From NCBI GenBank assembly GCA_943331445.1, contig CALQLO010000011.1, positions 1 to 64,000 of the forward strand: a DNA stretch of 64,000 bases, in the 5' to 3' direction. Position 1 is the stretch's first letter, and each line of letters starts with the position of its first letter. Shown piece after piece: positions 20,722 through 23,112 of this stretch. The stretch is from Akkermansia muciniphila. GTDB lineage: Bacteria > Verrucomicrobiota > Verrucomicrobiia > Opitutales > UBA953. Under the pieces are notes generated by a model. The model saw only the letters and a list, made by a program, of their open reading frames with translations. It was not told the DNA's origin and did not search any database. A program made the position numbers and the translations under genes.

Positions 20722-21375
20722 ATGAATATGGATATTGAGCATCTTCGCTGGGGCGGCCTGCAACTCATCCTGCTGATTATCTCCATCGGTTTGCATGAGT
20801 TCGGGCATGCTTGGATGGCCGATATGCGGGGCGATCCGCTCCCCCGTATGCAGGGACGCGTGACGCTCAACCCCTTCGCCCACGCTGACCCCATCGGGAC
20901 CATCGCGATACCCGCGTTCATGATTTTCTTAAGTCCGAGTTTCGGGCTCATCGGCTGGGGCAAGCCGGTCGAAATCTCCCTTCCTAACGCCAAGACCCGC
21001 CGAATGGATGACATTTATATCACCCTGGCTGGACCGGCGATGAATCTGGTGCTCTGTTTTATCTTGGCCGTCATCGGCGGCTTGGGTCATTTCGACATGG
21101 TGAAGGATGCGGTGATCGTAAAATTCTTGGTTCAGGGCATCTTCCTAAACGCCGGACTCGTTGTCTTTAACCTCATCCCTATTCCGCCGCTCGACGGCTC
21201 CCGGTTGGCGCTCCGCCTCGGCCTCTACACGGAAGAGATGTTCCTCACCCTCTCCCGTTGGGGATTCATCATCTTGATCGTGCTCATCAACCTGCCGCCC
21301 TTCCAGCGGTTACTGTCTTTTGGCCTACGTGCGTTGGGCGAGCCTTGGCTAGCCCTTTGGGAACTGCTGGCCTGA
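20722..21375 (+). CDS. Site-2 protease family (M50) membrane metalloprotease
   Basis: A 217-residue polytopic membrane protein of the compact M50 group. The zinc motif HEFGH is in the first membrane helix (H25, E26, H29) and the third ligand lies in NLIPIPPLDGSR near residue 155. There are about 4-6 membrane segments and no PDZ or CBS domain. Family members cut substrates inside the membrane, but compact members like this have mostly unknown targets. The ATG at 20722 (MNMDIEHL) is chosen; an upstream in-frame extension has no membrane-protein character. The rodZ-like gene follows 47 bases later. Confidence 0.87.
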   Translation: MNMDIEHLRWGGLQLILLIISIGLHEFGHAWMADMRGDPLPRMQGRVTLNPFAHADPIGTIAIPAFMIFLSPSFGLIGWGKPVEISLPNAKTRRMDDIYITLAGPAMNLVLCFILAVIGGLGHFDMVKDAVIVKFLVQGIFLNAGLVVFNLIPIPPLDGSRLALRLGLYTEEMFLTLSRWGFIILIVLINLPPFQRLLSFGLRALGEPWLALWELLA

Positions 21376-21422: not shown

Positions 21423-21815
21423 ATGCAAACCCTCGGCGAACGCCTTCAAGAAGCCCGGCAGCGACTGGGCGTGACTCTCCGCGAGGCGGCGGAGTTCACC
21501 AAGATCCGCACCGATTACCTTCAGTCCATGGAGGCCAACCAGTTTGAATCCATCCCGCTGGCCGATGTCTACAAGCGTGGGTTCGTGAAACTTTACGCCA
21601 AATACCTTCGTCTCGATGACGAAAAAGCCGGTGCTGATTTTAACACGCACCACTCCGCCAAGGCCTCCCGCCGTCCGCTCGAAGCCGGCGCCGAAGAAGA
21701 TGCGGCTTTTGAGCCCGCCAGTCCGGGTGGATCGATCACGGTGAATCGCGACATGCTCATCTACGGCATCATTGGGATCGCGGTCATCGCCATCATCATC
21801 GCGTTTTTTATCTAG
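21423..21815 (+). CDS. RodZ-like helix-turn-helix membrane protein, N-terminal part
   Basis: A 130-residue reading frame. Residues 1-65 are the RodZ-type HTH (LGERLQEARQRLGVTLREAA, then DVYKRGFVKLYAKYLRL), followed by an acidic linker and a single membrane helix (about 108-130, MLIYGIIGIAVIAIIIAFFI) that runs into the stop codon. RodZ links MreB to the envelope and normally has a periplasmic domain after the helix. Here the stop comes directly at the end of the helix, within a run of six Ts (21804-21809), and a matching periplasmic domain continues in the -1 frame (next entry). Either the gene is frame-shifted, read by frameshifting, or the run holds a sequencing error. Confidence 0.85.
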   Translation: MQTLGERLQEARQRLGVTLREAAEFTKIRTDYLQSMEANQFESIPLADVYKRGFVKLYAKYLRLDDEKAGADFNTHHSAKASRRPLEAGAEEDAAFEPASPGGSITVNRDMLIYGIIGIAVIAIIIAFFI

Positions 21816-21865
21816 GCTCGCCCGCGACGGCGAGCCATCCACAGCCAAAGAAGGCTACGGCCGCA

Positions 21866-22207
21866 GTGGTCATCCTGCCTGGACGACCGCATCAAATCGG
21901 GATTACCTCGACGTTGCCGAAGGTTCGCTTTCAGCTCACCGAGGTCGTGACGGGGGCCTTGCGGGCCAACATCATGCTGGGTCCGCGGGATGAGGAAGTG
22001 CTGATTAACGTCAAAGGCGCTACGATGCTCAATGCGACGGCGATCGAGGCCTTGCAGGTCCGGATCGACGGGCGCCGCTTCCAATTTCCGGCCCTGGCCA
22101 GCGGATTGATGACCGTAGAACTTCCCGACGCCGAATCGTCGCCGCCTCCCCCGCCGGTGGTTCCGCCCAATAGCCCGGCGGCCGCCCAGGTTAAGAAAAA
22201 ACGCTGA
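21866..22207 (+). CDS. Out-of-frame periplasmic domain of the RodZ-like protein
   Basis: 113 residues from a weak GTG, but the same frame is open back to the T-run at 21804-21809 with no stop, giving a linker (GSPATASHPQPKKA) before it. The segment TLPKVRFQLTEVVTGALRANIMLG, then VLINVKGATML, ALQVRIDGRRFQFP and LMTVELP, follows the strand pattern of RodZ-like C-terminal domains (modified side chain, GxL, GE-like turn, VxxDGxR, final xVxL). The end is Pro-rich and basic. No ribosome binding site precedes the GTG. A one-base insertion in the T-run would join both parts into a protein of about 261 residues. If not joined, this piece would lack a membrane anchor. Confidence 0.6.
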   Translation: MVILPGRPHQIGITSTLPKVRFQLTEVVTGALRANIMLGPRDEEVLINVKGATMLNATAIEALQVRIDGRRFQFPALASGLMTVELPDAESSPPPPPVVPPNSPAAAQVKKKR

Positions 22208-22256: not shown

Positions 22257-22874
22257 GTGCCCCCGCGTCTCGAACATCGCATTCTCGTTCTTAACCGTCT
22301 CTGGCAGCCGGTTAATATCGTGGGCGTACTCCGGGCGATGAGTTTACTTTTCCGCGGGCGTGCCACGGCCATACACGCCGATCCCTCCGGTCATCGCGTG
22401 CTCAACGCTGAAGAGTGGGTAAAGTTTTCGCTGGAAGAGCCGCCCGCGGCCTCCGAGGCCGTGCGCTCTCCTTGTATCTCCCTGCGCGTGCCTCGCGTGC
22501 TCTTGCTGGGTGCCTATGATCGCGTCCCTCGTCGCGAGATTCGCTTTAGCCGACGTAATGTCTATCTCCGCGATGCGAATACCTGCCAGTATTGTGGACG
22601 AACTTTTCGTGACGAGGAGTTGAACCTCGATCACGTGGTGCCGCGCGACGTCGGCGGGAAGACGAACTGGGAGAATATCGTGACGGCCTGTGTGCGTTGT
22701 AATTCCCGCAAGGCTAACCGATTGCCGGAGCAGGCTGGGATGACGCTACGCCGCGTGCCCGCTAAGCCCAAGTGGCGGCTGGTTGTGGCCTCTTCCTTGT
22801 CCGCTGATGAAGTTGAAGCGTGGAAGGAATTCCTCGAGGTCACGCCTGCCGGTCAGCTTCCTTGGCGGAACTGA
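22257..22874 (+). CDS. HNH endonuclease family protein
   Basis: A 205-residue protein with an N-terminal strand-rich part (HRILVLNRLWQPVNIVGVLRAMSLLFRGRA) typical of a widespread bacterial HNH family, and a C-terminal HNH core: CQYCGRTF, LNLDHVVPRDVGG, NWENIVTACVRCNSRKANR. The four cysteines (CxxC and CxxC) bind a structural zinc and H in LDH is the catalytic base. Members are often annotated as endonucleases but their biological targets are unknown. The GTG start gives the family N-terminus; an out-of-frame ATG lies 7 bases upstream. Followed by the two tRNA-Gly genes on the other strand. Confidence 0.87.
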   Translation: MPPRLEHRILVLNRLWQPVNIVGVLRAMSLLFRGRATAIHADPSGHRVLNAEEWVKFSLEEPPAASEAVRSPCISLRVPRVLLLGAYDRVPRREIRFSRRNVYLRDANTCQYCGRTFRDEELNLDHVVPRDVGGKTNWENIVTACVRCNSRKANRLPEQAGMTLRRVPAKPKWRLVVASSLSADEVEAWKEFLEVTPAGQLPWRN

Positions 22875-22890
22875 GCGGGAGGCAATTACT

Positions 22891-22964
22891 TGGTGCGGGT
22901 AACCAGATTCGAACTGGTGTATCCACTTTGGAAGAGTGGTGTCCTACCACTGAACGATACCCGC
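22891..22964 (-). tRNA. tRNA-Gly (anticodon TCC)
   Basis: A full cloverleaf on the minus strand: acceptor GCGGGTA/TACCCGC, D-arm with AGTGGTAGGA, anticodon stem CCACT/AGTGG with loop CTTCCAA (anticodon TCC), T-arm CCAGTTCGAATCTGG, discriminator A, and an encoded CCA end at 22891-22893. 74 nt with CCA. Acceptor, D-arm and T-arm are identical to those of the second tRNA-Gly upstream of it, so the pair arose by duplication. Confidence 0.95.
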
Positions 22965-23038
22965 GTGGCCAAGGAAGCCCACTATTCCGACCCGCCGGGC
23001 CGGGGTCAAGCCTCCCGAAGGCCCCTGGCGAAACGTCT

Positions 23039-23112
23039 TGGAGCGGGTAACCAGATTCGAACTGGTGTCACCACTATGGGAAAGTGAGGTCCTACCACTG
23101 AACGATACCCGC
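23039..23112 (-). tRNA. tRNA-Gly (anticodon CCC)
   Basis: Cloverleaf on the minus strand: acceptor GCGGGTA/TACCCGC, D-arm as in its neighbour, anticodon stem TCACT/AGTGG (one U-G pair) with loop TTCCCAT (anticodon CCC), T-arm CCAGTTCGAATCTGG, discriminator T, encoded CCA at 23039-23041. 74 nt. It reads GGG codons and is first of a tandem pair, 74 bases before the TCC gene. A TTGACG box (23150-23155, minus strand) lies 37 bases upstream and may be its -35, although the -10 is poor. Confidence 0.93.

Follow-up and report, generated by a model that had tools for sequence, protein, structure and literature searches.

A predicted programmed -1 ribosomal frameshift in rodZ of an uncultured freshwater genus of Opitutales

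The rodZ gene in the window (the whole 64,000-nt stretch of DNA analysed here, from a 2.4 Mb genome assembly) is split between two reading frames, and we propose that a programmed -1 ribosomal frameshift joins them, giving rise to two isoforms of about 130 aa (helix-turn-helix (HTH) domain and membrane helix) and about 261 aa (the same with the ectodomain added). From sequence comparison we estimated the probability of this reading at roughly 0.9. The split was found in 38 species of the group to which the window belongs, an uncultured freshwater genus of Opitutales (Verrucomicrobiota). A preliminary description of the locus had listed programmed frameshifting together with transcript slippage, a real mutation and a homopolymer sequencing error; the first of these is supported here by a conserved slip site, a downstream hairpin with covariation and a -1 frame under selection.

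Frame 0 of rodZ (21423..21815, plus strand) runs from an ATG at 21423 through a cytoplasmic HTH of the MreB-binding type, a linker and one putative membrane helix to a TAG stop (21813..21815, plus strand) one codon past the slip codon. Its 130-aa product, the putative short isoform, terminates in the helix (...IAIIIAFFI*), and a hydrophobic stretch was seen by eye in the translation at about residues 111-130. The candidate slip tetramer U_UUU (21806..21809, plus strand) is made up of the last T of one TTT codon and the TTT codon at 21807-21809, within a T6 run at 21804-21809. The -1 frame (21809..22207, plus strand) is open from the T-run to a stop at 22205-22207 and encodes a short linker, a predicted periplasmic beta-sandwich domain and a Pro-rich/basic tail; fused at the slippery codon, the two frames make a protein of 261 residues. 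The preliminary description had placed the T6 run and the TAG at these positions, exactly, and its further claims of a first frame ending right after the membrane helix, a -1 frame open from the T-run and a fusion of about 261 residues all held. A feature absent from it is a perfect 8-bp hairpin right behind the stop, GGCUCGCC-CGCGAC-GGCGAGCC (21815..21836, plus strand), a candidate stimulator located 5 nt past the slip codon. The upstream neighbour, a conserved gene for a peptidase M50-like membrane protein (20722..21375, plus strand), is outside the frameshift element. Downstream of rodZ lies a gene for an HNH endonuclease-domain protein (22257..22874, plus strand), followed directly by two tRNA-Gly genes (anticodons TCC and CCC) that are 74 nt apart on the minus strand (22891-23112).

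The first part (part 1, the frame-0 product) matched Pfam HTH_25 (PF13413, E 5e-18) and the solved chains 3fym, 4gqm (CT009) and 2wus_R, all three of them RodZ cytoplasmic domains; the RodZ equivalog models matched its N-terminus only, under cut-off. The identity of part 1 as RodZ, suggested earlier, is supported by the HTH_25 and chain matches. A phage origin was considered and rejected, as its HTH matches were weak. A profile of the second part (part 2, encoded in the -1 frame) aligned with that of the ectodomain in unsplit RodZ proteins from sister genera at an hhalign probability of 94%, in agreement with the RodZ-type periplasmic domain previously read into this frame. RodZ_C (PF13464) was found in 2 of 26 part 2 sequences, below threshold (best E 0.05), and, at E<=0.01, in 6 of the 14 relatives with a continuous gene; part 2 of the window had no match in Pfam and NCBIfam. 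Its predicted structure is a beta-sandwich with a core pLDDT of about 90. Foldseek and VIA-align comparisons of this model gave a generic beta-sandwich likeness (best Z 7.2), with no RodZ chain among the matches listed.

A match to part 1 was found in 53 of the 57 relatives in the initial search and, across the family, in 75 of 79 genomes, and part 2 was confined to the window's genus among the relatives searched. Seventeen genomes carry the short form only, 11 of them from the genus itself and 6 from a sister genus; because the genomes share ancestry, the counts of 38 and 17 are not independent observations. The HNH gene lies 52-74 nt past the rodZ stop in the short-only genomes vs 408-489 nt in nearly all others (one partial match gave 624 nt). 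Most named records of the genus are metagenome-assembled genomes of uncultured Opitutae, many with lake-type isolate names, and NCBI assigns one record, UBA953, to Opitutia, Verrucomicrobiota. In other genera of the family and in the sampled families of the order, rodZ is one continuous frame of about 230-300 residues, and this continuous gene with a homologous ectodomain was counted for the frameshift reading. A quick tree of part 1 and two neighbours, in which several deep branches are weakly supported, placed the short-only sister genus outside, a short-only pair (G019 and G036) nested among the frameshift genomes, and a second short-only group of nine genomes also inside the genus. The short-only state of the nested pair likely reflects loss of part 2.

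A mutation or a miscalled homopolymer might have split a normal rodZ, leaving a pseudogene or an artefact of sequencing: T-runs are hotspots of both error and mutation, and the sister genera do have a single frame. Comparison of the site in relatives, as had been recommended, revealed that the split and the slip site are conserved across the genus in independent assemblies, three of which have 'tig' contigs (BS6, BS8, and BS10) and are, going by these contig names, taken to be long-read assemblies. The occurrence of the same state in 38 species refutes a pseudogene or error at the genus level, and the conservation in separate assemblies rules out a homopolymer sequencing error. A real, decaying mutation is ruled out by purifying selection on the downstream frame (see below), and the lineages without part 2 are cleanly devoid of it. 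We consider this explanation exceedingly improbable.

An in-frame T_TTT (a Z_ZZN motif) is present in 38/38 frameshift genomes and in 0/17 genomes without part 2, in which TTC or another codon mostly occupies the slip-codon position. This absence, together with the closeness of the next gene in the same 17 genomes, was counted for frameshifting. Elsewhere in the same genes TTC is favoured over TTT (219 vs 71), and the conservation of U_UUU in all frameshift genomes despite this preference was also counted for a programmed -1 shift. A perfect heptamer is absent in most genomes; the commonest context, G_UUU_UUU (from the first G), is an imperfect heptamer, which counts against the frameshift reading. 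No upstream Shine-Dalgarno sequence was noticed by eye. The frame-0 stop can be TAA, TAG or TGA and is found in the same place, one codon past the U_UUU codon, in 37 of 38 genomes. The exception is G083 (L083; same locus as L135), where the stop is two codons past the slip codon (TTT TTT TCC AAA TAG). The hairpin of G083 has shifted along with this one-codon-downstream stop and still follows it directly.

Examined locus by locus in the 38 genomes, part 2 is always in the -1 frame and has the same start place relative to the frame-0 stop. The slip codon and a conserved R(P/L/T)H motif are 62 to 83 nt apart, at seven different distances that are all 2 mod 3, and the linker from site to domain varies in length by multiples of three only. 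This arrangement, the same in 38 genomes and with all distances 2 mod 3, is far above chance. In pairs of moderate divergence, the -1 domain has a dN/dS of 0.28 and is thus under purifying selection; the values for the other regions are 0.12 (HTH part), 0.45 (helix region) and 0.62 (linker). Stop-codon readthrough was excluded, since part 2 is in a different frame from part 1. Alternatively, part 2 could be a second gene whose own translation begins past the first stop through reinitiation or coupling, and GTG or ATG codons are indeed present 26-60 nt past the stop in some genomes. However, the positions of these codons are not conserved, and six genomes (G010, G087, G035, G011, G034, and G094) have no ATG, GTG or TTG in the part 2 frame within 160 nt past the stop. 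The first such codon in these six lies inside the domain, at 164 nt, or none occurs within 200 nt, so that the complete domain could not come from a separate gene starting at ATG, GTG or TTG. Made without the helix, the periplasmic domain would lack an export signal, and two genes would require neither a frame locked over seven linker lengths nor a conserved slip site. Two well-separated genes with their own starts, named earlier as the finding in relatives that would refute a split gene, are not what the relatives show. Separate translation of part 2 is very improbable.

The window hairpin has a perfect 8-bp stem and a 6-nt loop, and the 47-nt segment folds at -17.5 kcal/mol (shuffle z -4.2; 0/200 shuffles equally stable). 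A GC-rich hairpin starts 5-8 nt past the TTT codon in every frameshift genome (n = 38). Folding energy averaged over the 38 genomes (30-nt windows) shows a single sharp minimum at the stop codon, with a mean of -14.1 there and about -2 to -9 elsewhere. The local excess stability is at least the insertion-sequence threshold of an E. coli study (PMC4066793) in 36 of 38 genomes, the hairpins of G024 and G035 being under it, and for some genomes folding a longer window gives a minimum-energy structure other than the expected one. Among 20 aligned sequences that share one class of hairpin, three pairs had both sides changed, in 9 cells vs a shuffled mean of 3.1 cells, and slid versions of the alignment were far worse than the true register. 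The number of double-change pairs alone is unexceptional (reached by 95/500 shuffles), so weight is placed instead on the cell count, on the comparison with slid versions and on G014 and G082, whose hairpins are different. G014 has a perfect 12-bp hairpin of unrelated sequence at the same position, and the G082 hairpin is a variant of it, which suggests replacement of the stimulator. The hairpin sequence at these loci (L020 and L082, respectively) reads CCGGUUCGCCGG... and is unrelated to the others. A covariance model of slip site and hairpin gave full-length matches of >25 bits exclusively at rodZ; matches outside rodZ were weak and mostly to the hairpin alone. Weak matches to the hairpin without the slip site occur elsewhere in many genomes of the genus, including regions G012:C13:19036, G035:C89:8392, and G000:C45:10832 (L179, L180, and L178, respectively), two of the three adjoining a polA-like gene, and such matches are possibly terminators. 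As for the rodZ hairpin, the role of an intrinsic terminator was unsupported: the T-run comes before the hairpin, and no terminator was found.

The hairpin also bears on transcriptional slippage, by which the polymerase would add a U in the T-run and the longer mRNA would be read in one frame. A homopolymer is always present, and slippage would tolerate the two codon phases in which the 6-T run is found (GCG TTT TTT and GTT TTT TCC). However, the runs are just 5, 6 or 7 T long (5 only in three genomes), and selection against slippage is visible at runs of about 9 in many bacteria (PMC1088944). Moreover, the conserved hairpin, lying downstream of the run, is not yet transcribed while the polymerase sits on the run, and its conservation therefore fits translation. 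With short runs and a covarying downstream hairpin both disfavouring it, the slippage on T6 raised in the preliminary description is distinctly unlikely.

Slip site, hairpin, frame relation and selection on the -1 domain occur together in the frameshift genomes, and we infer the following ribosomal events. Ribosomes would translate the HTH and membrane helix and arrive at ...NUU UUU NNN stop with the GC-rich hairpin, beginning 5-8 nt past UUU, near the mRNA entrance. The majority would terminate there, giving the ~130 aa anchor form; in a fraction of them, tRNA-Phe would move back by one base from UUU to pair with UUU again, and translation in the -1 frame would append the periplasmic beta-sandwich, yielding ~261 aa full-length RodZ. 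The signal may thereby set the ratio of MreB-binding RodZ without ectodomain to full RodZ. A -1 shift on U_UUU ahead of a hairpin is in keeping with the rules measured in E. coli, in which U_UU.U and U_UU.C, given a downstream stimulator, rank with the tetramers that shift most readily (PMC4066793). Even when the stimulator is strong, active tetramers shift there at just 0.26-5.6% (PMC4066793), and the long form may accordingly be scarce. From the E. coli tetramer rules and by analogy with E. coli RodZ truncations and chlamydial RodZ (see below), we infer that the short anchor form is probably the major and the full-length form the minor product. It is possible, though rather doubtful, that rodZ contains a regulated recoding switch: growth or the nascent membrane helix would tune how often ribosomes shift, and hence the proportion of MreB-binding RodZ with ectodomain to that without, coupling or uncoupling cytoskeleton and cell wall.

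The E. coli copA gene has a slip site, a downstream structure and a near frame-0 stop, and a single mRNA gives two products; the frameshift yields the shorter one in copA and likewise in dnaX. E. coli dnaX and the IS1/IS3 transposases likewise have a slip site, a structure a few nt downstream and a near frame-0 stop, resulting in two products per mRNA (PMC4066793). In rodZ the predicted shift would add a domain, as in IS elements and unlike dnaX and copA, and the gene, unlike dnaX, copA and the IS transposases, encodes a cell-shape membrane protein. E. coli RodZ (YfgA) has the HTH, linker, single helix and periplasmic domain predicted here for the long isoform but is made from one continuous frame, and no report of a recoding signal was found for E. 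coli rodZ. Rod shape is still kept in E. coli when RodZ is truncated to residues 1-142 or 1-155, close to the putative short isoform described here (PMC6946637). Chlamydia RodZ (CT009), which is naturally without a periplasmic domain and binds MreB (PMC4047632), resembles the short isoform here and the 17 short-only genomes, and only this short form has been described, with no frameshift. The mreB and mreC genes are present in the window's genome and in nearly all relatives. An association of part 2 loss with Rod-system loss was looked for and not seen: most short-only genomes still have MreB and MreC, the few without a match being incomplete assemblies, so a Rod system can apparently work with the short form in these genomes.

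Literature searches, covering the main texts of open-access papers, brought up no previous account of a rodZ that is recoded or has isoforms; rodZ recoding is unmentioned in the main text of a large prokaryotic frame-transition survey and in a 2016 recoding review up to its last third. We concluded that rodZ is a new gene for a known mechanism type. Few conserved programmed frameshifts are known in ordinary bacterial genes, and the rodZ signal is deeply conserved in the genus, with sister lineages serving as natural controls. It is found in a core cell-shape gene, with the predicted shift point exactly between membrane helix and periplasmic domain. Annotation pipelines likely truncate or split rodZ in this group. 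Since both forms are expected from each message and some relatives are without the long form, the role of the RodZ ectodomain becomes directly testable.
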